From Granulicella sp. L46 (GTDB lineage: Bacteria; Acidobacteriota; Terriglobia; Terriglobales; Acidobacteriaceae), in NCBI RefSeq assembly GCF_009765785.1, contig NZ_LMUT01000003.1, forward strand, positions 483,570 through 547,569: a DNA stretch of 64,000 nucleotides, written 5' to 3'. Both the position numbers and the translations under genes were made by a program. Shown one piece after another: positions 10,987-58,817 of the stretch. Position 1 is the first letter of the stretch. The number at the start of each line of letters is the position of its first letter. Below the pieces are notes generated by a model, which ran no database searches, had not been told where the DNA came from, and was given only the letters and a program-made list of their open reading frames with translations.

Positions 10987-11794
10987 GGGCCGCCTCTCGT
11001 GCCACGTTGATCTCATCCCGAAGATTTCGCGCCGCGCCCTCAGGATCATCGCTGAATAGAATCGCCCGCGAGCTGCTGATCAACAATCCCTTACCCCGCG
11101 CATCCAACCCCGCAGCCACCACCGCCGCCACATCTCCGCCCTGTGCACCCACCCCCGGCACAAGGAACGGAATCCCCGGTGCAACCGCGCGAATCCTTCG
11201 CATCTCTTCCGGATACGTGGCGCCGACCACCAGCATGCAGTTCCCCGCAGCATTCCACTCCGAGCTCACTCGCATCGCCACGGTCTCCCACAGTGGGCGC
11301 CCATCGCATTCGAGATCCTGCAACTCCCCCGCTCCCGGATTCGACGTCCGGCACAAAACGATGCTCACCTTATCCTGCCGCTCCAGAAACGGTGCCAGCG
11401 CCTCTCGACCCAGGTAAGGATGCAGCGTCACCGCATCGAAACCCATCGCATCGAAAATGGACGCCACATATCCTCGATTCGTATTTCCAATGTCAGCGCG
11501 TTTCGCATCGCAGATCGTAAACACGTCAGGATGCTCACCACGCAGATACTCCATCGTTAGTTCAAGCTCTCGCAATCCCCGCGTTCCGCGCGCCTCATAG
11601 AACGCCATATTCGGTTTGTAGGACGCTGCATACGAATGCGTCTGCTCAATGATCCAGCGATTGAATGCAAACAGCGGAAACTCCTCGCTCTTGAAGCGTT
11701 CCGGAATCCGCTCAATCTCGGGATCCAATCCAACGCAAACCAGCGAGCCCACCGCATCCGCTCTCCGCTCGAACTTGTCTATCGCAGCGCTCAT
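10973..11794 (-). CDS. pyrF: orotidine 5'-phosphate decarboxylase (type 2)
   Basis: 273 aa, last step to UMP. The catalytic motif DAKRADIGNT (96-105) contains the Asp-Lys-Asp charge network, and LVCVGLDPE (18-26) holds the first active-site Asp. The length and the long DxKRxDIGxT form match the longer type 2 family rather than the about 230-aa E. coli form. Overlaps pyrC by 14 bp, implying translational coupling; pyrE stop lies 18 bp upstream. Confidence 0.95.
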   Translation of the reverse strand: MSAAIDKFERRADAVGSLVCVGLDPEIERIPERFKSEEFPLFAFNRWIIEQTHSYAASYKPNMAFYEARGTRGLRELELTMEYLRGEHPDVFTICDAKRADIGNTNRGYVASIFDAMGFDAVTLHPYLGREALAPFLERQDKVSIVLCRTSNPGAGELQDLECDGRPLWETVAMRVSSEWNAAGNCMLVVGATYPEEMRRIRAVAPGIPFLVPGVGAQGGDVAAVVAAGLDARGKGLLISSSRAILFSDDPEGAARNLRDEINVAREAAHAAS

Positions 11795-11812
11795 CGTCCT
11801 CGATCCAAACTC

Positions 11813-12487
11813 CTATTCAAACCCATGCCGCTTCGCCCACGACCGCGGCTCATCCAGCCAATCCCGCACCACCGCCGCTCCCGCCTCATCAATCATTTCC
11901 TGCCTCACCGCGCACTCAAGCACCACAGGAAACGTCGTTGCCGCATGCAATGTCACACCCGACATCGCGAACAAGTGCACTGCATCCGGAAAATCGTAGC
12001 TGATGATCGCCAGGCAATCCGTGACCAACGCACCCTCTGCGCGTAATGCCTCAATCGCCGCAAGGCTGCTTCCGCCGGTCGTCACCAAATCCTCAACCAG
12101 CACAACCCGCTTGCCGGTCACGTCGCCGCCTTCTACGCGCTTCTTCGTGCCGTGTTCTTTCAGCTCTTTGCGAATGAACACCGAAGGCGTCCGCATCGAA
12201 AACCCCAGCGCCGCACTGTGTGGGATGCCTGCAGCCTCAACTCCACCCACCACATCCACTGCAATCTCACGCTCTGCAATCAATCCTTCAAACCCACGAA
12301 TCACCTTCGCCCACTGCTCCGGCCAGAACGGAAACCGTCGATTGTCGCAGTACACCGGCGACTTAATTCCCGACTTGAATGTAATCGGAGCGGCTGGCCG
12401 AAAGCCCACACCCTCAATCGCAATCAACGCCTCCGCGATCTCGCGGCTCCGGCTCTCATAGCTGGTTCGCCCGGCCTCATAGCTCAT
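11813..12487 (-). CDS. pyrE: orotate phosphoribosyltransferase
   Basis: 224 aa, attaches PRPP-derived ribose phosphate to orotate. The PRPP-binding motif RVVLVEDLVTTGGS (127-140) and the flexible-loop basic segment RKELKEHGTKKRVEG (106-120) are both present, as is FKSGIKSPVYCDNR near the N-terminus. ATG 12487 is preferred (overlaps pyrD by 11 bp); the reading frame is open to 12514. Two near-identical N-terminal Tyr-Glu segments (SYEAGRTSYESR) suggest a tiny duplication at the extreme N-terminus. Confidence 0.94.
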   Translation of the reverse strand: MSYEAGRTSYESRSREIAEALIAIEGVGFRPAAPITFKSGIKSPVYCDNRRFPFWPEQWAKVIRGFEGLIAEREIAVDVVGGVEAAGIPHSAALGFSMRTPSVFIRKELKEHGTKKRVEGGDVTGKRVVLVEDLVTTGGSSLAAIEALRAEGALVTDCLAIISYDFPDAVHLFAMSGVTLHAATTFPVVLECAVRQEMIDEAGAAVVRDWLDEPRSWAKRHGFE

Positions 12488-44442: not shown

Positions 44443-46025
44443 TGCCCCGCAGCTTCCGGTGAGGGCTTAGCCGCCTTGCCAGGCAGGCGCATAACAAACG
44501 GCAACGGCGTGAGACACATAATGACAGCCGCCAGCAGCGCGAACGCGTTCTTGTAACTCAACATGCTTGCCTGCCGAAGCATCTGCTGGTATGCATACCC
44601 GACCGCCACCTGGCCAGCCTGGGTGGCGTTCATCCCCTGCGACTGCGCCATATTGGTGACGTGAGAGATGTAGTTGTTATAGCCTGCGCTGCCGGCTCCG
44701 CTATGTGCGGCGAGCTGCATCTGATGCGTCTGCGCGGTACGCGCAAGGAACGTAGTCAGCAGAGCCGTACCCGCGCTGCCACCGAGATTACGCGCAAAGT
44801 TAGAGAGGCTCGAGATCTGATTCATCTTCGTCGTCGGCACCCCCACATAATTGAGCGTGCTGATAGGAATGAACACCAGCGGCAGCCCAATCACCTGGAA
44901 CATGCGCCACTGCGTGATGGTCGCGAAGCTAGTGTCAAGCGACAGTCGCGTCAGGTTATAAAGCCCCACCGCAGTAATCACGTAGCCAATACAGACAAGC
45001 AATCGCGGATCCATTTTCCCAATGAGCCGGCCCGCAACAAACATCATGAACATCATTACGAATCCCGCAGGGCTCAACGCTTCGCCCGCAAGTTGCGCAG
45101 TAAACCCAAGCAGCGTCTGCAGGTATTGAGGGATCAGCACAGTGGACCCAAACAGCACCATGCCGAGCACCAACTGCAGGAAAACCGCCGTCCCGAAGTT
45201 CCGGTTCTTCAGCAGCTTGAGATCGACGATCGGATCCTCGTGGTTCCATTCCCAAAAAACAAACGTCACCAGCAACACCGCCGCAACGACAGCTGCCGTC
45301 GTAATGAGATCCGAGCCGAACCAGTCCTTTTCCTGTCCCTTATCGAGGAAGAACTCAAGCACGCCCACGCCCGACGCAACCAGCGCGAGCCCGGTGAAGT
45401 CAACCTTCCTTCCCACCGAAGCCTTGCGTCGCTCGATCAGCGCCGGCGGGTCCTCCACCATGCGCGAGCTCAGCCAGATCGAAAACAGCCCAATCGGAAT
45501 GTTGATAAAAAAGATCCAGTGCCAATTGAAGTTGTCCGTGATCCATCCGCCCAGCGTAGGCCCAATAGCCGGAGCAACCACCACAGCCATGCCATACACC
45601 GCAAACGCCTGACCACGCTTCTCCACCGGAAACGTGTCCGCCAAAATTGCCTGTTCCGAAGGTGCCAGGCCGCCGCCGCCGAGTCCCTGCAGCACGCGAG
45701 CGACGATCAGAAACGGCAGCGTCGGCGCCAGCCCGCACAGCAGCGAGCATGCCGTGAACATAATCACGCACGTAATGTAAAACCGCTTGCGCCCAAACCG
45801 GTCCGACAACCACCCCGAAATGGGCAGGATCACCGCGCTCGCTACAAGGTAGCTGGTCAGCACCCACGTCGCCTCGTCCTGCGACGCGCCCAGCGAGCCG
45901 GCCATGTGCGGCAGCGCAACGTTCGCGATCGAGGTGTCCAGCACCTCCATGAACGTGGCGAGCGTCACCGTTAGGGCGATCGCCCATGGGTTGTATTTAG
46001 GTTTCCAGTTTGCGTCGTAGGCCAT
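44439..46025 (-). CDS. EmrB/QacA-type 14-helix drug exporter (MFS DHA2)
   Basis: 528 aa. MFS motif D1 FMEVLDTSIANVALP (26-40), motif A GWLSDRFGRKR (about 76-86), antiporter motif C APAIGPTLGGWIT and helix-rich C-terminal half. Fourteen helices are expected. Exports toxic compounds by proton antiport. The ATG lies inside the perfect palindrome shared with the divergent MarR gene, 35 bp from that gene's ATG, so repression by MarR is strongly suggested. No separate adaptor (EmrA) gene is next to it. Confidence 0.93.
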   Translation of the reverse strand: MAYDANWKPKYNPWAIALTVTLATFMEVLDTSIANVALPHMAGSLGASQDEATWVLTSYLVASAVILPISGWLSDRFGRKRFYITCVIMFTACSLLCGLAPTLPFLIVARVLQGLGGGGLAPSEQAILADTFPVEKRGQAFAVYGMAVVVAPAIGPTLGGWITDNFNWHWIFFINIPIGLFSIWLSSRMVEDPPALIERRKASVGRKVDFTGLALVASGVGVLEFFLDKGQEKDWFGSDLITTAAVVAAVLLVTFVFWEWNHEDPIVDLKLLKNRNFGTAVFLQLVLGMVLFGSTVLIPQYLQTLLGFTAQLAGEALSPAGFVMMFMMFVAGRLIGKMDPRLLVCIGYVITAVGLYNLTRLSLDTSFATITQWRMFQVIGLPLVFIPISTLNYVGVPTTKMNQISSLSNFARNLGGSAGTALLTTFLARTAQTHQMQLAAHSGAGSAGYNNYISHVTNMAQSQGMNATQAGQVAVGYAYQQMLRQASMLSYKNAFALLAAVIMCLTPLPFVMRLPGKAAKPSPEAAGH

Positions 46026-46064
46026 ATCAGCTACCTGATATAGAATATCAGGTAGCTGATATGG
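46022..46064. promoter_or_regulatory. 43-bp perfect palindrome: probable tandem MarR operators
   Basis: Two 20-bp arms (46022-46041 and 46045-46064) pair perfectly around an AGA spacer. Each arm contains its own dyad, ATATCAG-N4-CTGATAT, so the site is two 18-bp operators with centres 21 bp apart (two helical turns). Both the exporter ATG (46025-46023, minus) and the MarR ATG (46061-46063) lie inside it. Confidence 0.85.
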
Positions 46065-46543
46065 ATTCTTTAAAGACGAAAAAACAATCCGCGCGGAAGC
46101 CAGCCGAGCTATACATCAGCAAGCCGGTCCTGGAGCGCATCTCGAGGATGAAGGCCGTCCTGCAGGGATGCAGGGTGGTGCTCGACGAAGAGTTACAGCC
46201 CCTCGGCATTACGACATCCCAGCTCCGCATGCTGTGGTCCGTCGCCGAAAATCCCGGCATCTCCGGCGCAAAGATGGCGCGCCTATGCTCCGTGACGCCG
46301 CAGTCAGGTCAGGCGACGCTAGCCATGATGGAGGCCCAGGGATGGGTCCGGCGATCGCCCAGCCAAGCGACCCATCGCGTCCTGGTAGCCGAGTTAACCG
46401 GCAAGGGGCAGCAGATCCTTATCAAGGCGCGAAAGATTGCGCAAGCCCTGGACCGCAGACTCTGGAAAGGGATCGGCGAGCGCGACCTGGCCGGCCTCGA
46501 TGCCGCACTTCGCAGTGCCGTCCAGACCCTGACAGTCAAGTAG
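46061..46543 (+). CDS. MarR-family transcriptional regulator
   Basis: 160 aa. Winged helix-turn-helix: LGITTSQLRMLWSVAENPGI, SGAKMARLCSVTPQSGQATL (recognition helix) and wing EAQGWVRRSPSQATHRVLVAEL, followed by dimerisation helices. A basic N-terminal tail (KTKKQSARK) precedes the fold. Likely represses itself and the divergent exporter, and is released by the exporter's substrates. The frame is open to TTG 46010, but that start would lie beyond the operator; ATG 46148 is a shorter alternative with TCGAGG upstream. Confidence 0.9.
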   Translation: MDSLKTKKQSARKPAELYISKPVLERISRMKAVLQGCRVVLDEELQPLGITTSQLRMLWSVAENPGISGAKMARLCSVTPQSGQATLAMMEAQGWVRRSPSQATHRVLVAELTGKGQQILIKARKIAQALDRRLWKGIGERDLAGLDAALRSAVQTLTVK

Positions 46544-46555
46544 GCATTCCCCGCC

Positions 46556-48256
46556 TCACCAACTCAACCGCATCAACTCCATCGACTCCCGCTCCAACTT
46601 CGTCTCCACCCTCACGCTCCCCGCATCCACGTCCACCCACCCCGGCGACCCCAACAACTCCAAACCACCCGCCCTCTTCAGCGCCGCCACCTGCTCCGCG
46701 CTCGGCGTCTGCGGCGACCCCATCGCCTTCCACGCGGTATACGCATTGCTATGCGTCTCATCCAGTCGATACCGCTGCACGAGCGCTCGCCGCACGCCCA
46801 CCGGCAATCCCTTCACCCGCACCTCCACGGCCGCACCCCCACCACCCTCCGCCACATCGTGGTAATCCCACACCAGCACCGACGCGCTCCTCCCCTCCCG
46901 CGTAGCCAGCCCATTCACATCCGCATCGCCGCGCACGCCCGTGCTGATCATCGCCTCCATCGGCACCGCGCCCGAGCTCTCCACCGACACCCGCTCGCCC
47001 CCCATCATCCCCAGCATCCGAAACACATTCAGCACCGGCTTATCCACCCCATTTGTACTCAGATCACGAAACCCCTCAAAATAATCCCGCCCCTCAAACT
47101 CAAACGACCAGCTAAGCATCCCCAACAAATTCACCCGATGCTTCGCCGCCAGATCCAACAGCCGCGCATACGCCGCAGCCGTATACGCCGGATACAACGT
47201 TCCATTGCGATAGTTATTCGCCGGATTCACCTTCGACGAGCAAGCCGCACATCCCTCAGGATCAGCTTCACTCAACAAAATCGGCAGCTTCGCAAACTTC
47301 GAAAAGCTAGCCACCAACCCAAACCCGCGATCCACATCCTTCAGCTCGCGATCGATCCCCATCGTCACTTTGCCGCCCTCAATCACCGGCTGCCCCTTCG
47401 CATGAAAGCTGATGAAATCCAGCGGCACCACACCTCCCGTAGCCGCGCTCTTCCCCGAAGCCGCATGCTCCAAAAACTTCTGCAGGTATCCATACGCATG
47501 ATCATTTCGAGGACTCGTAGTAGCAGGCCCACCCACCCGCGCACCCGGCAGCGCAGCCCGCACGCCCGCCACGGCATAGTCATACAGCTTCAGATACTCA
47601 TCCTCGGTCCCATGAAAGTACTCAATGTCCGGCTCATTCCAAACCTCGAAGTACCACGACAGCACCGCCTCTTTCCCATACCTCTCCACCAAATGCGCCG
47701 TCACCACCCGCGCCAACTCCTCCCACTTTGCATAATCCTTCGGCGGATTATTCGAAGCCCCCGCCAGCGTGTCCTTCGGATACAAAATCTTGTACGGCTG
47801 GTCCGGCTTCCCCGGCAGCACCGCCGCCAAATCCTTCGGCATAAATCCCAACTCCACCACCGGTCTCACGCCCTCAGCCTTGTACGCGTCGAAGATTCCA
47901 TCCATCAACCGAAAGTCATACACCGGCTTCCCACTCGCATCCTCGCTGTACACATTCGTCGAACTCCACTTCAACGCCGGCACCCCATCCCCCGACGTCA
48001 GCAAATGATGCGCCCGAATATAAACCGGCGCCGCACTCAAATCATGCAGCTGCCCCAGCAACTCCCTCCCCAGCACCGTAGTCGAGTAGTTCCCCTCGTC
48101 ATACCCGAACCACGCATACGCCGGCTCCCACACCCCCACCGGCTTCGCAAGATCCACGTCCACCGTCACCGGCGCCTGCGCCCGCAACATCCCCAAGCAC
48201 GCAATGCAACCGACTAACAGCGCCGCCATTCTCAACCCAAATCTCGCTCGCATCAT
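46556..48256 (-). CDS. GH39-like glycoside hydrolase, exported
   Basis: 566 aa. Signal peptide (AALLVGCIACLGMLRAQ). Clan GH-A barrel with YFEVWNEPDIEYFHG (acid/base Glu, about 208) and ILLSEADPEG (nucleophile Glu, about 329), the pattern of GH39 beta-xylosidases and related enzymes. YIRAHHLLTSGDGV early in the barrel also fits GH39. A C-terminal beta domain follows (SVLVWDYHD). Probably cleaves xylo-oligosaccharides or related glycans. ATG pair 48256/48253 is preferred over GTG 48319 because it begins the signal peptide. Converges on marR. Confidence 0.87.
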   Translation of the reverse strand: MMRARFGLRMAALLVGCIACLGMLRAQAPVTVDVDLAKPVGVWEPAYAWFGYDEGNYSTTVLGRELLGQLHDLSAAPVYIRAHHLLTSGDGVPALKWSSTNVYSEDASGKPVYDFRLMDGIFDAYKAEGVRPVVELGFMPKDLAAVLPGKPDQPYKILYPKDTLAGASNNPPKDYAKWEELARVVTAHLVERYGKEAVLSWYFEVWNEPDIEYFHGTEDEYLKLYDYAVAGVRAALPGARVGGPATTSPRNDHAYGYLQKFLEHAASGKSAATGGVVPLDFISFHAKGQPVIEGGKVTMGIDRELKDVDRGFGLVASFSKFAKLPILLSEADPEGCAACSSKVNPANNYRNGTLYPAYTAAAYARLLDLAAKHRVNLLGMLSWSFEFEGRDYFEGFRDLSTNGVDKPVLNVFRMLGMMGGERVSVESSGAVPMEAMISTGVRGDADVNGLATREGRSASVLVWDYHDVAEGGGGAAVEVRVKGLPVGVRRALVQRYRLDETHSNAYTAWKAMGSPQTPSAEQVAALKRAGGLELLGSPGWVDVDAGSVRVETKLERESMELMRLSW

Positions 48257-48340
48257 CACAACACTCTTGTACGCGAAACTCCTGAGCGCCGCCACCACGC
48301 TTTCACAAAGGATCCCCACCTTGCATCCCGCATAAAACTC

Positions 48341-48375
48341 GTATACCGTAGGGGGGTATGCTTCTAATGCATACC
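48341..48375. promoter_or_regulatory. triple half-site, probable metal-regulator operator upstream of NRAMP operon
   Basis: Three 7-bp half-sites in alternating orientation sit exactly 14 bp apart: GTATACC (48341), GGTATGC (48355) and GCATACC (48369). The middle and right pair form a perfect inverted repeat with a 7-bp spacer; the left and middle are separated by a G-tract (GTAGGGG), as in CsoR/RcnR-type sites. Together with 48376-48633 this is a 377-bp stretch without a certain gene; it otherwise holds a possible 22-codon leader ORF and a CTTCA-GGACC-TGAAG hairpin-like segment near 48493-48508. Confidence 0.55.
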
Positions 48376-48397
48376 AACCATCTTACTGGAGCACCTC

Positions 48398-48466
48398 ATG
48401 ACGAACTCAACCACAAAGGAACCTCCGAGTCCTCGGACGCCCTCCTGCGCTGCGTTCGCCAGGTGA
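48398..48466 (+). CDS. possible 22-aa leader ORF
   Basis: ATG with TGGAG 7 nt upstream, reading MTNSTTKEPPSPRTPSCAA and ending FAR. Lies in the leader of the NRAMP operon, 23 bp after the triple half-site. It may be a leader peptide or chance; no homology is claimed. Confidence 0.3.
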   Translation: MTNSTTKEPPSPRTPSCAAFAR

Positions 48467-48633
48467 GGTAGTACGGTAGTCTTCTTCCCAAGCTTCAAGA
48501 CCTGAAGGCGTCACCCTCCCCTCCGCGCGCAGTGCCCAACCACGGCACACGCGACCCGAATCAACACGTGCCCACAAGCACGCCTTCGTCGTCGCCTCCA
48601 CTCGCATGCAGCCGCATGCAGTCAGGAGGACCC

Positions 48634-48777
48634 ATGTCCCTCAACATCACCACCTACATCGATACCCGCCGCCCCACGCTCATCCGCGTCTGGCGCACCG
48701 ACGGCGCCCACCTCATCAGCACGTGGATGCCCACCCTCGCTCCCAACACCAACATCGAAGGAGGTCCGCGTCCATGA
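48634..48777 (+). CDS. 47-aa small protein coupled to the NRAMP-like transporter
   Basis: Reads MSLNITTYIDTRRPTLIRVW then a short polar tail ending EGGPRP. AGGAGG lies 4 nt before ATG and the stop overlaps the transporter start as ATGA, so it is very likely translated and coupled. No membrane segment or known motif. Confidence 0.65.
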   Translation: MSLNITTYIDTRRPTLIRVWRTDGAHLISTWMPTLAPNTNIEGGPRP

Positions 48778-50084
48778 CCCTCCTCCAACCTCAACTCGCA
48801 CCCACCCACGCCATTCGCGTCCGTCGCCCCTGGCAGCGGACGTTGCTCAGCTTCCTCGTCGCCTTCGGCCCCGGCCTCATCGTCATGGAAGCCGACAACG
48901 ACGCCGGCGCCGTCTCCACCTACATGCAGGCCGGAGGTCAATACGGCCTCCACCTGCTCTGGGTCCTCGTCCTTCTCCTCCCCATCTGCTACTTCGTGCA
49001 GGAGATGGTCGCACGCCTCGGCATCGCCACCGGCAAAGGCCACGCCGCCATGATCTACGAGCGCTTCGGCAAAGCCTGGGGCCGCTTCTCCCTGTTCGAC
49101 CTACTAGCCGTCAACTTCCTCACCCTCATCACCGAATTCGCCGCGATCTCGCTCGCCATGCGCGGTCTCGGCGTAGCGCCCATCATCTCGGTGCCCATCG
49201 CGGCCCTCGCCCTCGTCGGCCTCATCGCCACCGGCAGCTACCGCCGCTGGGAGCGCATCGTCGTCATCCTCTGCCTCCTCGACATCACCTGGTTCATCGC
49301 CGCCGCACTCCTTCACCCCAACTGGTCCGCAGCCCTCCACAACACCTTCGTCCCCTCACTCCCTCACACCGGCAAAACCGGCGACCTCGTATTCCTCATC
49401 ATCGCCATCGTCGGCACCACCATCGCTCCATGGCAACTCTTCTTCCAGCAGAGCTGCGTCGCTGAAAAGCGCCTCCGCTTCGCCGACCTCAAGTGGGCGC
49501 GCCTCGACACGCTCATCGGAGCCATCTTCACCGTCCTGGTAGCCGGCGCCATGATGCTCACCGGAGCCTTCGCCTACAACCACCACATCCCCTTCACCGA
49601 CCCCGCACAACTAGCCCAATCCATCGCCATCATCCTCCCGCACCGCAGCGGCATCTTCATCCATCACGCGCTGCTTCTGCTCATGGTCAACGCCGCCGTC
49701 CTCGGCACAACGGCCATCTCTCTCGCCAGCGCCTGGGCCTATGGAGAAGTCGCCGGCTGGCAGCACTCCCTCCACAAAAAGCCCTCGGAAGCTCCCGGCT
49801 TCTACGCCGTCTACGCGATCTGCGTCTTCGCCGCCGCGGGCATCGTTCTCCTCCCACATCTACCGCTGCAACTGGTCATCGTCAGCGTGCAAGTCTTCGC
49901 CGGCCTCATCCTCCCCTCGGCCATCATCTTCCTCCAACTCCTCCTCAACGACCGCGCTCTGCTAGGTGATCGCTGGGTCAACCGCCCCTGGAACAACTGG
50001 ATCAACTGGTCGATCATCATCGTCCTCTTCGCGCTCTCACTCATCCTCGCCGCGCAAGTCCTTCTACCCAACCTCTTCAACTAA
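48774..50084 (+). CDS. divergent NRAMP-family (SLC11-like) cation transporter
   Basis: 436 aa, about eleven membrane helices. TM1 reads FGPGLIVMEADNDAGAVSTY (31-50) and then MQAGGQYG, aligning with the NRAMP 'GPG...DPGN...QAGAQYG' segment, but the metal motif DPGN is DAGA (43-46): Asp kept, Asn lost. In TM6 the MPH motif is APW (218-220), so the sulfur ligand Met is absent too. Metal specificity may therefore differ from Mn/Fe transporters; NRAMP-related Mg transporters also lack that Met. GAAGGAGG lies 9-16 nt upstream. Second gene of a four-gene run (small ORF, transporter, small TM protein, barrel-like protein). Confidence 0.9.
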   Translation: MTLLQPQLAPTHAIRVRRPWQRTLLSFLVAFGPGLIVMEADNDAGAVSTYMQAGGQYGLHLLWVLVLLLPICYFVQEMVARLGIATGKGHAAMIYERFGKAWGRFSLFDLLAVNFLTLITEFAAISLAMRGLGVAPIISVPIAALALVGLIATGSYRRWERIVVILCLLDITWFIAAALLHPNWSAALHNTFVPSLPHTGKTGDLVFLIIAIVGTTIAPWQLFFQQSCVAEKRLRFADLKWARLDTLIGAIFTVLVAGAMMLTGAFAYNHHIPFTDPAQLAQSIAIILPHRSGIFIHHALLLLMVNAAVLGTTAISLASAWAYGEVAGWQHSLHKKPSEAPGFYAVYAICVFAAAGIVLLPHLPLQLVIVSVQVFAGLILPSAIIFLQLLLNDRALLGDRWVNRPWNNWINWSIIIVLFALSLILAAQVLLPNLFN

Positions 50085-50101
50085 TCCCGAAAGGAGCCAC
50101 C

Positions 50102-50335
50102 ATGGCCGCCGCCGCAACCCAACCCACCCCGAATGAAACGCACCTCTACGTCATCCATCCACTCGACGACGTCCACGAGCAGAAGTGCACCTCCGAAGGC
50201 CTAGGCCTCATGCACCTCACGCCAACCGTGCGCTTCGCCCTCACCACCCTCCGTGTCTACCTCATCGCGATGACGCTCATCATCCTCTACCGCACCCTCA
50301 CCCTCGCCCACTTCTTCGCCCCACACGCGCACTAA
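50102..50335 (+). CDS. small single-helix membrane protein in NRAMP operon
   Basis: 77 aa. Polar N-terminal half (about 1-45), one membrane helix (RVYLIAMTLIILYRTLTL, about 51-68) and a His-containing tail (AHFFAPHAH). AAGGAG lies 6 nt before ATG and the gene follows the transporter stop by 17 bp. Probably a transporter-associated small protein; unknown family. Confidence 0.7.
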   Translation: MAAAATQPTPNETHLYVIHPLDDVHEQKCTSEGLGLMHLTPTVRFALTTLRVYLIAMTLIILYRTLTLAHFFAPHAH

Positions 50336-50348
50336 CCCGCACCGCACA

Positions 50349-50377
50349 CCCGAACCGCTTCCCCACATCGGTTCGGG
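50349..50377 (+). terminator. hairpin, possible terminator or attenuator
   Basis: CCCGAACCG (50349-50357) pairs with CGGTTCGGG (50369-50377) around an 11-nt loop; followed by CCCTCTCTC rather than a T-run. Located between the small membrane protein and the barrel-like gene, so termination may be partial. Confidence 0.5.
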
Positions 50378-50540
50378 CCCTCTCTCATCCCATTGATCGA
50401 TAGCCAAGCCCTTCAAGTGACCGATGTTCAACCGCGCCTACATTCCCTACACTTGGCCGGTAACTCAAAACAGAAATCATCCGCATCCAGCGAGCGAACC
50501 TCATCTGCCGTATCCGAGCCCGCGTCGCGAGAAAGATTCC

Positions 50541-51416
50541 ATGCACCAGAAAAACCGTCTCCCTTCGCTTCTTTTCTCCCTCTGCCTCATCGCGCTCAGC
50601 TCCACCGCCGCCTTCGCCCAGACCACCACCGCCCAAACCACCAACACCAACTTCTTCTCCGCCTGGGAGAGCCGCGTCCGCGCCACGCTCGCCCGGCAAC
50701 CTTCCTATCCTATCCCCGTCATCGCACCCTCCGCGCAGATGGTCCAGCTCTTTCGCTTCGACTACGTCCACGAGTACACCCCCGCCCGCACCGCAACCGA
50801 CATCTTCACCAACGGCAAGGGCCTCAACCTCATCCCCTGGGCCAACACCGAAATCGACATCGACCTTCCCCCCTACATCCAGCACCACAATCCCAAAGTC
50901 ATCGACGGCGCCGGCGATTTCTCCTTCGTCGTCAAGTTCCGCCCCTTCGCCAGCCCCGACAAGCATCACGCCTACTCCATCGGCGGCCAGGTCGCCGTCT
51001 CCGTCCCCACCGGCAGCTATAAGAACGGCGCCCTCGTCTCCACCATCACGCCCACCGTCATGGGCGGCAAAGGCTTCGGACCATTCGCGATTCAATCCAC
51101 CATCGGCGCCATCCTCCCCAAGAGCGACGCCTCCACTATCGGCCGCACCATCACCTGGAACACCACTCTCCAGGCCCGCGTCGCAAAAATCTTCTGGCCC
51201 GAAATCGAATTCAACTCGAACTACTACCATGAAGGTCCCAACAACGGAAAGAATCAGACCTTCGTCTCGCCCGGCTTCATGGTCAGCAAGATCAATTTCC
51301 GTCACACCCCCGGCAACCGCCTCGCCCTCATCTTCGGATCGGGCTTCCAGGTCGCCACCTCCACCTTCCACACCTACAACCACGCCTACGTCTTCACCTC
51401 GCGCTTCGCCTTCTAG
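50541..51416 (+). CDS. exported protein, probable outer-membrane beta-barrel
   Basis: 291 aa. Signal peptide (SLLFSLCLIALSSTAAFAQ). Mature part shows alternating strands (FSFVVKFRPFAS, YSIGGQVAVSVPTGSY, PFAIQSTIGAILP, NTTLQARVAKIFWPEIEFN, NRLALIFGSGFQVAT) and ends in an aromatic Phe (FTSRFAF), as outer-membrane barrels do. Resembles the transporter/MetA-pathway-like barrels of unknown substrate. ATG 50541 is chosen for the signal peptide; the frame is open from 50424. Same strand as the NRAMP genes, about 200 bp downstream. Confidence 0.75.
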   Translation: MHQKNRLPSLLFSLCLIALSSTAAFAQTTTAQTTNTNFFSAWESRVRATLARQPSYPIPVIAPSAQMVQLFRFDYVHEYTPARTATDIFTNGKGLNLIPWANTEIDIDLPPYIQHHNPKVIDGAGDFSFVVKFRPFASPDKHHAYSIGGQVAVSVPTGSYKNGALVSTITPTVMGGKGFGPFAIQSTIGAILPKSDASTIGRTITWNTTLQARVAKIFWPEIEFNSNYYHEGPNNGKNQTFVSPGFMVSKINFRHTPGNRLALIFGSGFQVATSTFHTYNHAYVFTSRFAF

Positions 51417-51716
51417 AGTTAGTGTCCAACGAAACCACCATTTGCTTTTTGCCTACAAATTTTCGCTTCTAGGTAACCTCAAGGCTCTTGATTCCAAGCA
51501 CCCAAGGCACTCGCTATAGCTATCAAGCCGCTCGCTTCTAGGTACCCCAAGGCTTCAGTCTTGGGTTTCATAGGCCCGCAAATGTGGTGGGCTTTAGCCC
51601 CCGGGTATGCCTTCTTATCCCCGGCCCCCCTTCACCAATACAATCGCAGCGTATCCCCAACCTCCGGCGGCGGCCAAGTATCATCGAGCCAACAGCCCAA
51701 CCGCCGGAGCTACCTC
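51417..51716. repeat. intergenic segment with direct and inverted repeats
   Basis: Two near-copies of TCGCTTCTAGGTA-C-CAAGGC begin near 51465 and 51533, in the same orientation. The second runs into a hairpin CCCAAG-N8-CTTGGG (51546-51565), and GGGCT-TT-AGCCC (51589-51600) follows. No coding sequence is seen; the segment separates the NRAMP run from paiB. Confidence 0.55.
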
Positions 51717-52367
51717 ATGTACACCCCCAAAGACTTCCTCGTCGACGACCTCCCCACCCTCCACGCCGACATGCAGCGCAACTCCTTCGCCGCACTCGTC
51801 ACCCTCACCTCCTCCGGCCTCGTCGCCACGCACCTCCCCATCCTCCTCGACCCCGACCGCGGCACCTTCGGCACCATCCTCGGCCACGTCTCCCGCGCCA
51901 ACCTCCAATGGCAGCACACCGACCCCGCCACCGAAGCCCTCCTCATCTTCAACGGCCCCGACACCTACGTCACCCCCAACTGGTATCCCGCCAAGCAGGA
52001 AACCCACCGCGTCGTTCCCACCTGGAACTACGCAGCCATCCACGCCTACGGCCCCATCACCTTCTTCGACGACCCCACCCGCCTCCGCGAAATCGTAACC
52101 CGCCTCACCGACCTCCACGAGTCCACCTTCCCCAGCCCGTGGAAAGTCACCGACGCCCCCGCCAACTACATCGACGGCCAGCTAAAAGCCATCGTCGGTT
52201 TCGAGCTCCCCATCTCCCGCGTCGAAGGCAAGCGCAAGTTCAATCAAAACCGTTCCGCCGCCGACCAAACCGGCGTAGTGCAAGGTCTCCGCTCCCTCAA
52301 CGACCCCACCAAATCCCACGTAGCCGACTTCATGCAATCCCTCACCGAGAAATCCAAACCGGAGTAA
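51717..52367 (+). CDS. PaiB-type FMN-binding split-barrel protein
   Basis: 216 aa. MYTPKDFLVDDLPTLHADMQ at the N-terminus, GLVATHLPILLD, GHVSRANLQWQ, PNWYPAKQETHRVVPTWNY and GKRKFNQNRSAADQTGVVQGL near the C-terminus are hallmarks of the PaiB/FMN-binding negative regulator family. It probably binds FMN or heme; named for protease repression in Bacillus, but the molecular role is uncertain. ATG 51717 has GGAG 8 nt upstream; the longer frame from 51561 reads through repeats. YVTN gene follows after 9 bp. Confidence 0.87.
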   Translation: MYTPKDFLVDDLPTLHADMQRNSFAALVTLTSSGLVATHLPILLDPDRGTFGTILGHVSRANLQWQHTDPATEALLIFNGPDTYVTPNWYPAKQETHRVVPTWNYAAIHAYGPITFFDDPTRLREIVTRLTDLHESTFPSPWKVTDAPANYIDGQLKAIVGFELPISRVEGKRKFNQNRSAADQTGVVQGLRSLNDPTKSHVADFMQSLTEKSKPE

Positions 52368-52376
52368 CCTCTCTCC

Positions 52377-53426
52377 ATGCGACTCCCTCTCCGCACCGCA
52401 ACCTCCCTCCTCGCCCTAACCCTCTCCACCACCGCGCTCGCGCAGACCACCCTCCTAGCCCTCTCCAAGCACGACCACACCCTCTCCGTCATCGACCCCA
52501 CCACCCTCAAAGTCCTCTACACCCTCCCCGTCGGCCCCGACCCCCACGAGGTCATCGCCTCCACCGACGGCACCACCGCCTACGTCTCCAACTACGGAGG
52601 CGGCGCCTTCCACACCCTCGCCGTCCTCGACCTCATCCACCACACCGCCCTCGCCTCCATCGACCTCGGCCCCCTCAACGGCCCCCACGGCCTCACCTTC
52701 GTCGGAGGCAAACTCTACTTCACCGCCGAAGGCGCCAAGGTCATCGGCCGCTTCGATCCCGCCACTCAAAAAGTCGACTGGGTCCTCGGCACCGGCCAAA
52801 ACCGCACCCACATGATCTACGTCTCGCCCGACCTCCAACACATCATCACCAGCAACGTAGCGTCCGCGACGGTCAGCCTCATCGACATGCAAACCCTCCC
52901 GCAACAAGGCCCACCCCCCGGAATGAAACCGCCCGCCGGTATGCACCCGCCGCCCGGCCCTCCACCCACCCGCAAAGACTGGAACGAAACCGTAGTCCCC
53001 GTAGGCCACGGCTCCGAAGGCTTTGACCTCTCCCCCGACAACAAAGAAATCTGGGTAGCCAACGCGCAAGACGGCACGATCTCCATCATCGACTACGCCG
53101 CCAAAAAAGTAATCGACACCCTCCACCCCGACGTCCGCAGCGCCAACCGCCTCAAATTCACCCCCGACGGCAAGCACGTTCTCGTCTCTCTCCTCGGCAA
53201 TCCCGACCTGGTCATGCTCGACACCGCCACACGTAAAGCCATCAAGCGCCTCCCCATCGGCACCGGCGCAGCCGGCATCCTCATCGACCCCACCAACAAC
53301 CGCGCCTTCGTAGCCAACACCCCCGACAACAAAATCACCATCATCGACCTCAACACCCTAACCATCACCGCCCACATCCCCAACATCGCCGAACCCGACG
53401 GCATGGCCTGGGCCACCCACCCCTAA
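52377..53426 (+). CDS. exported YVTN-type beta-propeller protein
   Basis: 349 aa. Signal peptide (to about residue 23, ALAQ). Propeller blades: LSVIDPTTLKVLYTLPVG, VSNYGGGAFHTLAVLDL, WVLGTGQNRTHMIYV, GSEGFDLSPDNKEIWVAN, ISIIDYAAKKVIDTL, LVMLDTATRKAIKRLPIG, ITIIDLNTLTITAHIPN. A Pro/Met-rich loop (PPPGMKPPAGMHPPPGPPP, about 180-200) interrupts the fold. Function is probably ligand or protein binding outside the cell. Second YVTN gene in the window, not closely similar to the first. Confidence 0.85.
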   Translation: MRLPLRTATSLLALTLSTTALAQTTLLALSKHDHTLSVIDPTTLKVLYTLPVGPDPHEVIASTDGTTAYVSNYGGGAFHTLAVLDLIHHTALASIDLGPLNGPHGLTFVGGKLYFTAEGAKVIGRFDPATQKVDWVLGTGQNRTHMIYVSPDLQHIITSNVASATVSLIDMQTLPQQGPPPGMKPPAGMHPPPGPPPTRKDWNETVVPVGHGSEGFDLSPDNKEIWVANAQDGTISIIDYAAKKVIDTLHPDVRSANRLKFTPDGKHVLVSLLGNPDLVMLDTATRKAIKRLPIGTGAAGILIDPTNNRAFVANTPDNKITIIDLNTLTITAHIPNIAEPDGMAWATHP

Positions 53427-54396: not shown

Positions 54397-57300
54397 TTAG
54401 TGGATATCAAACTGCTCCGGATGCAGGCTAGGATCGCTCTTCACCAGGATCGTCTTGCCTGACATCTCTTCCATCTCCTGCAGCCACTTCGCTCCGCCGG
54501 TCTTCAACTGCTTCACAACTTCCGGATTCACGCGCAGCATAATGTCACCCTTCTCGATCAGCTTATGCATCTTCCGCATCTCGATATAGATGTCATTGCA
54601 AACAGTAACCGGCGACTTCACCATACCCGTGCCAGCGCAAATTCCGCAGGTCGTTGACAGTGTCCGTTCCAGCGACTGCTTCACGCGCTTCCGAGTAATC
54701 GCGACCAGTCCAAAATCATTGAACTGCAGCACCTTCGACGGAGCGCGATCCTTCTTCAGCTCGTCTTCCAGCGCAGCCATCACCTTGTTCCGATTCTTCC
54801 GCTCATCCATATCGATGAAGTCGATGATGATAATTCCACCTAAGTCGCGCAGCCGAATCTGCCGAACGATTTCAGGAATCGCATCCAAGTTCGTCTTCAC
54901 GATCGTGTCCTCAAGCCGAGCCGTCTTGCCGACATACTTGCCCGTATTGATGTCGATCGCCACCAGCGCCTCCGTCTGGTTGATCACAATCGATCCGCCC
55001 GACTTCAGCCACACCTTCGACCGCAGCGCCGTATTAATCTCCTCGGTAATCCCGAACTGCTCAAACAGCGGCGTGTCCTTCGTATAAAGCTTCACGCGCC
55101 GAATCAAGCTAGGCTGGAACCTCTGCAGGAACCGCAGCACGCGCTCATATGCATCCTCTGTATCCACCCAGATCGCGGAGAAATTATCCGTAACCTGGTC
55201 ACGCAGAATCCGCTCCACAAGATTCAAATCGTGATAAATCAACGCCGGGCTCTTCGATGACTCAGACCGCGTCTTGATATCCGCCCACAGGTTGAGCAGG
55301 AACCGTAGATCGCTCCGCAACTCCTCCTCGCTCGCTCCAGCCGCCGCCGTGCGCACAATAAAGCCGCCCTGCGCGTCACCCTTCTCGCTGAGCAGAATCT
55401 CCTTCAGCCGCCGCCGCTCGCCGTCCGACTCAATCTTCCGCGACACGCCCGTATGATTCACCGTCGGCATGAACACCAGGAACCGTCCCGGCAACGCAAT
55501 GTGCGACGTAATGCGCGCACCCTTCTTCGCAATCGGCTCCTTGGCAATCTGCACCAGGACTTCTTGCCCCGGCTTCAGCAGGTCGCTGATCGCCGGCAGG
55601 TTCGTCGACTGCATCGACCGTCCGCCACGATCCCGTCCGCCGCCACGAGGCCGCGAGTTTGCCATGCCACGGCCATCGCGCGAACTACGCTCGCCACCGC
55701 GGTCGCTGCTGCTGCTGCGCTCGCCGCTTCCACTGCGTTCACGATCACGTCCCCCGCGACGTCCATCTCTACGCCCACGACGTCCACCCTCGCGTCCGCC
55801 TTCGCGACCACCCTCACGCTCGCCGTCACGCACTACCGGCTGACCTTCTACCGTGGCCGGGCGCGCATCGCCATTCTCATCAAAGCTCGAGGCCTCCGCA
55901 AACTCCTCTTCCTCGGCCTCGCTGATCTGGCTTCCCGAAACTTCCTCTTCGACGAAATCCTCTTCGCCATTCGACGCGAGCTCGTCTTCTTCGAAATCCT
56001 CTCCGTCGTCGTCGAAGTCCTCGTCCTCGTCGTCCTCTTCATCAATCTCAGCCGGCTCAAGACCCGTAATGTCATCGATCGTCATGTCGCGAATCATGCT
56101 GCCCAAATCGGCCGCACCCTCCAGCGTCTCTTCCTCGACGTCATCATCAAACGCGCCAGCATGCAGCGACCCAATCTCAGCGTCCTCTTCATCCAGCAGC
56201 TCTTCCTCAAGCTGCCCATCGCCCGGCGCAAATCCCTGCGCCGCGTCCTGCGCGTGCACTCGCTCGCCCTCAATCGACACCGGCGTCTCCGCCTCGGCCG
56301 CATGCACCGACTGCACTACCGCCTCATGCTCAATCGGAGCCGTAGGATCAGCATGCACAATCTCCGCATGCGCCACCTCCGAGATCAGCTCACCCGTAGG
56401 CTGCAGACTCGTAAACTCCGGCTCGTGGACAGTCTCCGCAACCGGCTCTTCCACCGTGCCGCTCTGCCGAAACTCCCGCGCACCCGCCGGGTCCACACGG
56501 AACGAAGCCGACGCATTCTCCTCCGGCTCATACTCCGCCGTCGTCTCATGAAACTCCGGCTCCGGGAGCTCAACAGCTTCCCGCAACTCGGCATCATGCA
56601 CCGACGAAATCGCCTCTTCGAACTCCGCCTCATGCTCAGCCGCCGGCTCCAATGCCTCCACCGGTGCCAAATCCGTCTGCCCCGCATACTGAGGCTCATA
56701 CTCACGCTCAGCCACATCATGCGCCGAGCTAACAGCCGGCATCACAGCCTCCGCCGGATCGATCCCGCGCGGCTCCGCACGATACTCCGTCCGCGGTGCG
56801 TCCTTGCGCTCGCCCCCGCGTCCCTTCTGCTCATCGCGTCCACGCCGGCGATCCCGTCCACGTCCACCACGGTCTCCACGATCATTACGATCACGATCTC
56901 CACCACGGCTCTCGCTCGACGACGACTCGCCGCGCGACTCACCACCCCGCGGCTCACGTGCCCGCAACGTCTCGCCCGGCAACACCGCTCCGCCATCCCA
57001 ACCAACCAGCGGCGTAACTTCAGTTGAAGGCTTCGCAGCAATCGTTGAACCCGACGCCTTAGCAGGCTCCGCAGCCGCGCCATTCTCTCCCCGCCGATAC
57101 TTCGACAGCGACTCGCCCGGCAGAATAAACGGCTCCGCCTGCGATCCCGCCGACGCACTCAGATCGACAAACTCATCGTCCGCCGAACCCGGCCGCGCAC
57201 CACGCGGCGCAAACCGCTCCCGCACCGAATCCAGCCGCGAATCGCGTCCACCAGACTCACGCGCACCAGAAGCCTCACGCGCACCCTGGTCACGACCGCC

Positions 57301-58122
57301 ACGATCACGGCCGCCGCGATCCCGTCCACCACGATCTCTACCACCACGATCACGGCCGCCGCGCTCACCACCCCGATCGCCGCCAACCTCACGCGACTCC
57401 GGCCGACGCTCAGCCGAACGCACCTCTTCTCGAGGAGCAACTTCACGAGGAGCAACCTCGCGCGGCGCAGCAGTCTCTACGCCAAACTCATCCGCCTCAT
57501 TCCCAACTGGCGCCTCTGCCGAAGCCTCACCCGCAACCCCACGTCCCCGCCGCCGTCCACGACGTCCACGCCACCGGCGCTGACCATCCGCACCCGGAGC
57601 ACCCTCACCAATCTCATCTTCTTCCCCAGCACGCGGCGCCGCATCCAGCACCTCATCCTCAACCGGAGCAAAACTCCGAGCCTCTTCAACCGGGCTCTCC
57701 GCGCCGCGATCCGCCGGCACCGCCTCACGGTTTCCACGATCCCGATCGCGCCCATCGCGCCGCCCGCGTCCACGGCCTTCGCCGCGACCCTCACTGCGTC
57801 CCTCCGTACGACCCTCACTCCGAGGCCGCTCACCCCGAGGCGCACGATCCCCACCACCCGACGCCGCGCCATCAAAGTCCGCAGCGTCTCCGGCCTCTTC
57901 CATAAAGTCCGTAATGTAAAGGAACGCATCGCGCTCGAGCCCAATATCCACAAAGCTCGACTGCATGCCCGGCAGAACGCGCGTCACACGCCCGTTGTAA
58001 ATCGAGCCTGCAAGCGTGTACTCATTCTCGCGCTCGTAATAAATCTCTGTGAGTTCTTCTTTTTCGACAATCGCCAGCCGCGTCTCATGGGGCGTGCTGG
58101 ATATATAAATTTCTTTCGACAT
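54397..58122 (-). CDS. rng: RNase E/G with giant insertion in S1 domain
   Basis: 1241 aa endoribonuclease of the E/G family (mRNA decay and rRNA processing). The S1 domain starts normally (SIYNGRVTRVLPGMQSSFVD, about 38-57) but after FLYITDF (about 72) about 760 residues of Arg/Gly/Asp/Glu/Ser-rich, probably disordered sequence intervene before the fold resumes at KPGQEVLVQIAKE (850-862). Insert repeats include GGRDR tandem units, APREV triplets and acidic stretches. The catalytic part is complete: ALVAIDINTG and IIIIDFIDM (metal-binding Asps, about 1055 and 1102) and Zn-link CGICAGTG. No C-terminal scaffold. ATG 58122 has GAGGAGAAAG upstream. Confidence 0.95.
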   Translation of the reverse strand: MSKEIYISSTPHETRLAIVEKEELTEIYYERENEYTLAGSIYNGRVTRVLPGMQSSFVDIGLERDAFLYITDFMEEAGDAADFDGAASGGGDRAPRGERPRSEGRTEGRSEGRGEGRGRGRRDGRDRDRGNREAVPADRGAESPVEEARSFAPVEDEVLDAAPRAGEEDEIGEGAPGADGQRRWRGRRGRRRGRGVAGEASAEAPVGNEADEFGVETAAPREVAPREVAPREEVRSAERRPESREVGGDRGGERGGRDRGGRDRGGRDRGGRDRGGRDQGAREASGARESGGRDSRLDSVRERFAPRGARPGSADDEFVDLSASAGSQAEPFILPGESLSKYRRGENGAAAEPAKASGSTIAAKPSTEVTPLVGWDGGAVLPGETLRAREPRGGESRGESSSSESRGGDRDRNDRGDRGGRGRDRRRGRDEQKGRGGERKDAPRTEYRAEPRGIDPAEAVMPAVSSAHDVAEREYEPQYAGQTDLAPVEALEPAAEHEAEFEEAISSVHDAELREAVELPEPEFHETTAEYEPEENASASFRVDPAGAREFRQSGTVEEPVAETVHEPEFTSLQPTGELISEVAHAEIVHADPTAPIEHEAVVQSVHAAEAETPVSIEGERVHAQDAAQGFAPGDGQLEEELLDEEDAEIGSLHAGAFDDDVEEETLEGAADLGSMIRDMTIDDITGLEPAEIDEEDDEDEDFDDDGEDFEEDELASNGEEDFVEEEVSGSQISEAEEEEFAEASSFDENGDARPATVEGQPVVRDGEREGGREGGREGGRRGRRDGRRGGRDRERSGSGERSSSSDRGGERSSRDGRGMANSRPRGGGRDRGGRSMQSTNLPAISDLLKPGQEVLVQIAKEPIAKKGARITSHIALPGRFLVFMPTVNHTGVSRKIESDGERRRLKEILLSEKGDAQGGFIVRTAAAGASEEELRSDLRFLLNLWADIKTRSESSKSPALIYHDLNLVERILRDQVTDNFSAIWVDTEDAYERVLRFLQRFQPSLIRRVKLYTKDTPLFEQFGITEEINTALRSKVWLKSGGSIVINQTEALVAIDINTGKYVGKTARLEDTIVKTNLDAIPEIVRQIRLRDLGGIIIIDFIDMDERKNRNKVMAALEDELKKDRAPSKVLQFNDFGLVAITRKRVKQSLERTLSTTCGICAGTGMVKSPVTVCNDIYIEMRKMHKLIEKGDIMLRVNPEVVKQLKTGGAKWLQEMEEMSGKTILVKSDPSLHPEQFDIH

Positions 58123-58817
58123 TGCTCTGCTTTCTCCTCGCACCCGGCTCTCAAGCCGGCGTGCTCTGGCAGAACAAGCGAAGATCGCGCTGCACAAGCT
58201 CTAACGCACTGCGTTAGCTCCCTGCAGCAGCCTCCTGCGATACGGACAGAACTTGAGCCATGTAAACATGAGTCGCGGAGACTGGAGCTATTCCAAACCC
58301 GTGCGCGCCCGCTACAGCACGCCTTCCCGCACACAAAATCCTGCGCTCTTCGCGCATCCGCGTGCCGGAACCGGGAGAAAACTTTGCCAGTGTTGTACCG
58401 CCTGTCGTGGGCCCACTGTTTCTGCCCCTCGACACCATGCCGTCAACGGAGTTTGTGACCAACGCAACCTCAACCTGAGGCGGGGCCGTTAACCGTCCGT
58501 TTACGTTCATTCTCAAAACCTGTCCGGCCATCGGAAGTTGATCCGCGCCTGGCCGGCCTTCTCAAAATCTTGTTTCTAAAAGTCTTGTTGCTAAAACTTG
58601 TTAACCGCTGCAACGGGAAAAATCATCGCATCCGTGCCGCAGTCCCTGTAACCGATCAGCCCTATGGCAGATCGTCTGCTTCTAGTATGCACCAAAACTT
58701 GGCACTTTGCTTCTCCGCCCCTCAATTCCGTCTAAACCCTTGGCACCCAACAGTTCCCCATTGCTTTCCCGGTACCCCGCATCTACAGTTCTCCCATCCC
58801 CACCGGAGGCACCCTCC
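58123..58817. other. 695-bp non-coding region upstream of the RNase E/G gene
   Basis: On the minus strand the part nearest the RNase holds two hairpins: CTAACGCA-C-TGCGTTAG (near 58201-58217) and CCGGCT-N4-AGCCGG (near 58144-58159), as expected in a structured 5' leader. Further out (58570-58605) lie direct repeats CTTGTT-CTAAAA. I see no convincing gene: open frames here have no ribosome site and are not family-like. The VOC gene's promoter must also lie here. Confidence 0.5.

Follow-up and report, generated by a model that had tools for sequence, protein, structure and literature searches.

The DNA considered here is a stretch of 64,000 nucleotides from Granulicella sp. L46 (the window; contig NZ_LMUT01000003.1, in a genome of 39 contigs and 5.48 Mb), in which a short run of features on one strand is built around a transporter of the SLC11 family. 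In front of the transporter stand a palindromic operator of the DUF156 type (the CsoR/RcnR/FrmR family), a short leader open reading frame (ORF) and a 47-residue ORF termed S47, and behind it stands a 77-residue protein with one hydrophobic helix, termed S77 (Table 1). This anatomy of the locus can be put forward with considerable confidence, and the sections below build from it towards the proposal of a metal-stress operon under DUF156-type control.

Table 1. Features of the locus, in window coordinates
Feature	Position	Strand	Remarks
DUF156-type operator ATACCGTAGGGGGGTAT	48343-48359	+	palindrome about 430 nucleotides before the transporter
Short leader ORF, 22 residues (MTNSTTKEPPSPRTPSCAAFAR)	48398-48466	+	relatives keep M..EPPS..C
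Hairpin-forming stretch	48526-48553	+	between leader ORF and S47
S47, 47-residue ORF	48634-48777	+	AGGAGG in front; TGA overlaps transporter ATG at 48774 (ATGA)
NRMT-type SLC11 transporter	48774-50084	+	436 residues, 11 membrane helices expected, DAGA/TTIAPW site
S77, 77-residue single-helix protein	50102-50335	+	hydrophobic helix, PHAH tail; proposed detached C-terminal helix subunit
9-bp hairpin CCCGAACCG...CGGTTCGGG	50349-50377	+	behind S77; no clear T run; z -3.4 against shuffles
Outer-membrane-like protein, 291 residues	50541-51416	+	judged to lie outside the system

The transporter and its place within SLC11

By its sequence the transporter is a member of the NRMT branch of SLC11, whose members import Mg2+ and Mn2+. 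It matches the Pfam Nramp family (3.9e-69), and reads D43-A-G-A46 in transmembrane helix 1 (TM1) and T215-T-I-A-P-W220 in TM6, where canonical NRAMP and MntH proteins have DPGN and MPH. Both replacements had been seen in an earlier note on this DNA and are borne out by the translation and by the near-full-length orthologues, with DAGA in 38/38 and TT(I/V)APW in 38/38 (multiple alignment of n=38, with L149 left out). The NCBIfam MntH model scores 107.8 bits, below its cut-off of 430, and the closest structure is EleNRMT, at an E value of 2.4e-65 as against 1.1e-16 for the second. In the alignment with EleNRMT, residues D43, T215, E121 and Q373 correspond to D55, T224, E133 and Q379, such that the likeness to the NRMT/NrmT proteins (EleNRMT, CabNRMT) extends over the SLC11 fold, the binding-site Asp of helix 1, the TM6 sequence TTIAPW, the TM3 Glu, the TM10 Gln, the lack of an Asn or Met ligand and the Trp that replaces the first TM6 histidine. 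The TxxA/T motif of helix 6 is present as T215-T-I-A218, with no Met.

The published NRMT signature is DxxG-TxxA/T, and EleNRMT transports Mg2+ and Mn2+, according to the available text of PMC8806188. The missing Asn and Met, which the earlier note had taken as a pointer to a harder cation or a non-metal substrate, thus belong to a signature that is already known and give no hint of an unfamiliar substrate. For Al3+, at which no test was aimed, no indication emerged. The change from Gly to Ala at helix 1 appears conservative, and the protein may be filed as a variant NRMT branch with Mg2+/Mn2+ as its probable substrate.

The phylogeny is in keeping with this placement. In a midpoint-rooted tree thinned to 65 of 102 rows the window clade has support of 100/99 and the transporter falls with the NRMTs, on their side of the canonical NRAMPs, two rows of which are parted from the remaining rows by a 100/100 branch; a sister clade joins the window clade at 94/89. 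The suggestion that this is no ordinary Mn/Fe NRAMP, and that its site suits a harder cation, is borne out. The loci themselves come from a scan of genome contigs with 586 relatives, of which the best 80 were retained, so that the distribution counts describe close relatives only: 39 are orthologues (L113-L151), 37 belong to the sister clade (L156-L192; the set A1 holds 34 of these 37 proteins) and 4 partial ones (L152-L155) are excluded from the counts.

Two further SLC11 paralogues lie in the same genome. One, at locus L033 (8634-9893, minus strand, and 11390-12058), has DAGG/TTITPW and an MgtE-N-like stretch about 1.5 kb upstream; the other, at L034 (7013-8320), has DDDPSG in TM1 and a very long tree branch.

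S77 and the fused helix of the sister clade

What, then, is the small protein that follows the transporter? S77, recognised in the earlier note as a single-helix protein with a His-rich tail and correctly so, lies directly behind the transporter in 37 of the 39 orthologous loci, and the two loci without it are one contig end and one truncated transporter. The profile behind this count came from iteration over the two clades, with some drift possible, and was checked by a profile made from separate S77 proteins only and by tblastn. Across 28 genomes of the genus, transporter and S77 (12 copies of each) occur in the same 11 genomes, and the S77 matches found in two overlapping sets of 61 related genomes (15 matches) and 297 genomes of the phylum (4 matches) are all in transporter-bearing genomes and behind the transporter, in one case across a contig break. 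Both genes are present, too, in Terriglobus roseus and Bryocella elongata. The idea of a small-protein partner is thereby upheld for S77. None of its 94 database relatives has a Pfam domain, and those with a source name are annotated as hypothetical protein. S77-like ORFs also lie behind 7 of 23 paralogues.

The sister clade comprises MgtE-N-associated NRMTs that are 44-49% identical to the window transporter. When the separate-S77 profile was compared with the 7830 ORFs of the 37 sister-clade loci, the top 26 matches were all transporter ORFs, matched at the C-terminus (7 at E <0.002, the 26th at 0.63). S77 and the fused C-terminus share the helix together with the segment that precedes it (LR.YL), and the HPLDD..E.K segment of S77 is unmatched. 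In the predicted structure of the fused transporter of Dyella (predicted local distance difference test score 89) the C-terminal helix lies at 510-540. Since the sister clade has a similar helix as part of the transporter C-terminus, S77 most likely represents a detached part of the transporter, which itself groups with an NRMT branch where many members carry an extra C-terminal helix, and S77 would contact the transporter as a subunit. The sister clade differs in that its helix is fused, behind one additional helix, and in having DxxG in 31/37 where the window clade has DxxA.

S77 was also considered as a possible TM12 of 12-helix NRAMPs: when the fused model is aligned to DMT1, NRAMP1 and EcoDMT, the match extends into the last helix of the model, but the direction of the charges argues for an N-terminus inside. 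Among small membrane proteins, MgtS (with MgtA), KdpF and AcrZ have one helix and are encoded with a transporter or bind one. S77 is likewise a one-helix protein, a likeness in description, but differs in being also fused in relatives.

The pair also appears in records labelled as other groups than the Acidobacteria. Orthologous loci with S77 include metagenome-assembled genomes (MAGs) labelled Acidobacteria, Fimbriimonas, Armatimonadetes, Verrucomicrobiota, Gemmatimonadetes and Acetobacteraceae as well as the isolate Fundidesulfovibrio agrisoli, and orthologues of 59-72% identity with S77 stand in records not labelled Acidobacteria (L126, L127, L135, L138, L141, L143, L145-L147, L151). This suggests either that transporter and S77 were transferred together or that MAGs were mis-binned, and the isolate F. 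agrisoli (L135) favours transfer. The fused-helix sister clade is found in Actinobacteria, Alicyclobacillus and Proteobacteria, Dyella among them, and has relatives on 40 plasmid records. A plasmid search with the window transporter itself gave 40 records, all at <60% identity.

The operator, its probable repressor and the regulon

The range covered by the earlier note begins at 48341, on the operator, which the note did not name. The operator pattern has 1 match in the window where 0.02 are expected, and in its degenerate form it has 2 exact copies in the genome (about 0.06 expected; reversed control 0), the second of which lies between the only DUF156 gene of the genome and an OprB porin gene. 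That DUF156 repressor gene, on the same contig some 205 kb ahead of the window, matches PF02583 with 65.1 bits (cut-off 22.8). A third operator-like place with 1 mismatch (L052, contig C5, 1108977-1108993) is situated about 4.7 kb from the DAGG paralogue.

The link between site and repressor recurs in relatives. Over 41 genomes the pattern has 42 matches and its reversed control 2, and among the 28 genus genomes the site is present in 21/21 with a DUF156 gene and absent from 6/7 without one (p 1.9e-5, ignoring shared descent); co-occurrence of transporter and repressor within the genus is by itself not significant (10/11 versus 11/17, p 0.13). In a comparison of 46 upstream regions (23 of near orthologues and 23 more distant), a site with at most one mismatch precedes the transporter in 20 of the 23 near orthologues. 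The repressor gene stands beside the transporter and diverges from it in 9/39 loci and occurs anywhere in the locus in 11/39, and it also adjoins the transporter in genomes G108, G146, G285, G291 and G229.

To what would such a repressor respond? Among curated models it comes closest to FrmR and RcnR, with four scanned copies falling below both cut-offs (FrmR 71-100 bits against 133, RcnR 50-75 bits against 138). FrmR is thus the top-scoring curated family and is also the closest structure, but the repressor lacks Pro2 and has His at the Glu/Thr64 position of FrmR. All 40 regulators listed for its group carry Cys and HxxxH, and 14/40 also have His3 as in RcnR (the motif pattern fixed the first His and allowed any residue at the second, with start codons chosen by script). 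Of the RcnR fingerprint His3-Cys35-His60-His64 the window genome's copy keeps the Cys and both later His. From the literature, as far as the available texts go, the RcnR-like HxxxH introduced by E64H alone suffices to give FrmR a Co and Zn response (PMC4528141), formaldehyde sensing requires Pro2 and Cys35 (PMC5146963), and RcnR binds TACT-G6-N-AGTA, with RcnR and DmeR leaving DNA on binding Ni/Co and controlling Ni/Co exporters (PMC7055735). A metal inducer is likelier than formaldehyde given HxxxH in all 40 regulators, the absence of Pro2 from the genome's own copy, the behaviour of FrmR E64H and the need of formaldehyde sensing for Pro2 and Cys35; the inducer would be of the Co/Ni/Zn class. 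The system resembles RcnR-RcnA and DmeR-DmeF in its repressor with Cys and HxxxH, in an operator beside the repressor's own gene and in a G-tract between near-inverted ends, and differs in having an importer-type NRMT and porins as its targets.

The regulon extends to the outer membrane. The porin beside the window genome's repressor scores 92.9 bits for Pfam OprB against a cut-off of 22.9, which 6 further copies also exceed, and an OprB-like porin lies within about 2 kb at 20 of the 27 fetched loci in which an exact operator stands elsewhere than before the transporter. Near the transporter itself such a porin occurs in 9/39 loci, and also in Dyella, and an MgtC-like gene in 4/39; these likenesses are BLAST clusters, with Pfam run on 4/9 porins and 3/4 MgtC genes, one of which (L121) runs into a transposase. 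For instance, in one Armatimonadetes MAG (L138) MgtC, transporter, S77 and porin are consecutive on one strand. The proposal of a system that crosses both membranes therefore survives in part: an outer-membrane component exists, likely an OprB-like porin encoded elsewhere in the genome at the same operator type, and the neighbouring outer-membrane-like protein drops out.

Further genes stand at these operator loci. In G001 (L087; 3811-4464 and 4467 onward, minus strand) the repressor gene is directly followed by a CDF gene, the same arrangement of repressor and CDF-type cation exporter as in dmeR-dmeF; a NicO gene occurs at one site (G003, L108) and an MgtC gene about 0.9 kb behind another (G022, L088). 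Large TonB-receptor-like barrels occur at G001 and G009 (one, L093, was scanned), and a barrel protein at L101 has no Pfam match, with proteins alike by eye in L098, L104 and L106.

S47 is better understood as part of this regulon than of the transporter. Its ATGA coupling to the transporter, with AGGAGG in front, is as the earlier note described it, and an S47-like ORF precedes the transporter in 21/23 near orthologues. Relatives of S47 also precede OprB-like porin genes at 6 operator loci (L099, L100, L103, L105, L107, L108; E 1.9e-10 to 1.8e-14), because of which S47 is assigned to the regulon and its proposed role as a dedicated partner or subunit of the transporter was given up. It thus marks the regulon and is perhaps a leader or a coupling peptide. 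The S47-type ORFs keep W..TG.P..PL...W and a C-terminal LCA.

Between operator and S47, an ORF occurs at the leader position in 22 upstream regions (the script required a PP or DP pair). Its ratio of nonsynonymous to synonymous polymorphism is 0.25-0.65 in four groups and 1.00 in the window's own group, that is, without an excess of silent change, and the window copy is shifted near its end, such that it is uncertain whether this ORF is coding in the window. A reading of the DNA behind the operator as a truncated CsoR gene, from one window frame, was rejected, as relatives show a different short ORF in another frame. A CTCACCGCTCnTCACAGCATACGACCTGTGATTTGAGCGCGTGAG-like stretch that can form a hairpin is conserved between leader ORF and S47 in 14 upstream regions (L113, L117-L124, L149, L025, L040, L028, L037). 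In the window this hairpin folds no better than shuffles (z 0.18), none of its 7 pairs covaries among the 14 relatives, and Rfam has no match at 46000-53000 and one weak, unrelated match at 48300-48800; for lack of an Rfam family, of covariation and of excess folding a riboswitch was rejected. The hairpin behind S77 is possibly the end of the transcript.

Further along the window, at 54397-58197 on the minus strand, is a 1266-residue ORF with an end that is RNase E/G-like by eye and a long low-complexity insert rich in Arg, Gly, Asp and Glu, with GGRDR repeats.

A proposed metal-stress operon and its alternatives

The features above can be joined in one account, to which we give about an even chance (roughly 0.5) as a whole: the locus would be a metal-stress operon under DUF156-type control. 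Its order would be operator, short leader ORF, S47, an NRMT-type importer of divalent cations and a detached one-helix subunit. The repressor would hold the operon and the porin off and release them when a metal of the Co/Ni/Zn class binds its Cys-His-x3-His site. The transporter would then admit Mg2+, possibly Mn2+, along the membrane potential and without protons, and the imported ions would replace those displaced by the toxic metal; an importer induced by Co/Ni/Zn is sensible if it brings in a competitor ion. S77, whose N-terminus would lie inside, judging from the charges that precede the helix, would bind the 11-helix core and aid its folding or gating, and the OprB-like porin of the same regulon would serve the outer membrane. 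The fuller idea of a two-piece SLC11 carrier, in which the 11-helix core needs a separate regulatory or gating helix and the pair, with the porin, forms a protective supply of Mg2+/Mn2+ induced by toxic metal through an RcnR/FrmR-type repressor, is more tentative and is offered as a possibility only.

A number of observations weigh against this account. In comparison with the NRMT/NrmT proteins, from which it also differs by a separate helix subunit and DUF156-type control, the window transporter has DxxA for DxxG, as do 38/38 orthologues, no M-box was found by the Rfam scans of 46000-53000 and 48300-48800, and there is no MgtE-N partner; M-box and MgtE-N partner are frequent among NRMTs without being universal. 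The available text of PMC4072509 reports that most NRMTs travel with an MgtE-N gene, that the role of this partner beside the NrmT of Acidobacterium capsulatum is called unknown, and that this NrmT (Shin et al.) rescued Mn2+ uptake fully but that of Mg2+ only when Mg2+ was in the low-millimolar range. An MgtE-N/CBS-like stretch occurs near 30/37 sister-clade loci and 9/22 paralogue loci (short flanks; one in the window genome) and in 0/39 window-clade loci, which weakens the case for Mg2+. In the helix-bearing paralogue group 2 of 9 rows lack an S77-like ORF, and support for the branches that join the window clade to its sister (94/89) and to these paralogues (93/87) lies slightly below what the tree tool counts as strong. 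On the regulatory side, an operator with at most 3 mismatches is absent from 20 of the 23 more distant upstream regions (two of the others have a site with 2 mismatches and the third a site with 1), and the porin is missing at 7 of the 27 operator loci. The window genome's repressor starts Met-Glu-Leu and so is without both the His3 of RcnR and the Pro2 of FrmR, the Pro2 of a few relatives' repressors leaves formaldehyde possible for those, and RcnR and DmeR control exporters, so that by analogy an importer under such a repressor would be unusual.

On the MgtE-N partner it may be added that the stretch is also present in the one Rhodococcus plasmid region read, and that an acyl-CoA dehydrogenase, entertained as a sister-clade neighbour from antisense frames, was discarded, the gene being the MgtE-N/CBS partner.

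The chief alternative is that the transporter carries the very metal sensed by the repressor (Ni2+, Co2+ or Zn2+), either importing it with low affinity or serving as a route of export under load. The RcnR-like fingerprint of the regulators, the NicO and CDF genes at the same operator type (one relative each), the loss of the MgtE-N partner and the control of Ni/Co exporters by RcnR and DmeR (PMC7055735) all speak for it. Import of the inducing metal would, however, aggravate the stress, export against the membrane potential is at odds with the uncoupled transport of EleNRMT (PMC8806188), and the site residues of EleNRMT are kept save for Gly to Ala, all of which makes this alternative unlikely, if still the strongest of its kind; no test of Ni/Co transport by EleNRMT was found in the available text of PMC8806188. 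Less probable again is a repressor that senses formaldehyde or another electrophile, with the operon as part of that response: FrmR is the nearest curated family and structure and Pro2 is present in a few relatives, but the window genome's repressor is without the Pro2 needed for formaldehyde, 40/40 regulators carry His at the position that is Glu or Thr in FrmR, and no frmA-like gene was recognised in the two longest ORFs on each side of the operator loci, where no search aimed at frmA was made.

The earlier note had also envisaged a dedicated four-gene, two-membrane system that includes the neighbouring outer-membrane protein. S77 is constant and S47 frequent among the near orthologues, while the outer-membrane gene lies on the same strand, 205 nucleotides away (start 50541 is better than 50424, judged by eye from a signal-peptide-like N-terminus). 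The protein has no Pfam match, however, and a tblastn search of 192 loci with their flanks (E up to 0.01; no genome-wide search was made elsewhere) matched it at two loci only, both the window's own copy. With the gene beside no orthologue among these loci, the hairpin at 50349-50377 intervening and the recurrent outer-membrane neighbour being an OprB-like porin, the protein was rejected as a partner and the four-gene system is highly improbable; the note's own check on the neighbours of orthologues thus comes out positive for S77 and negative for this gene. Least credible of all is an ordinary Mn/Fe NRAMP with its site intact under a different alignment, for while the NRAMP fold is present, DAGA/APW pairs with DPGN/MPH in both pairwise and multiple alignments and the 100/100 branch sets the transporter apart from canonical NRAMPs.

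For the metal-stress operon, what appears to be new is the pairing of S77 with a fused counterpart, the link to a DUF156-type operator and repressor, the porin regulon and the identity of S47 as a regulon ORF; in the open-licence literature nothing was recognised that describes an NRAMP under RcnR control or one paired with a small accessory subunit. NRMTs are a young class of transporter whose control and partners are largely open, and the window branch is one without the MgtE-N partner, with a detached helix and a DUF156-type switch in its place. The natural occurrence of fused and split versions makes the role of the helix testable with two small constructs. If the reading as a two-piece carrier is true, it would mean that an SLC11 transporter can have an accessory subunit of its own and that Co/Ni/Zn sensing is directly tied to the import of Mg2+; and, should the inducer be Co/Ni/Zn, it would show that bacteria answer a toxic metal by importing its competitor, beyond exporting the metal only.

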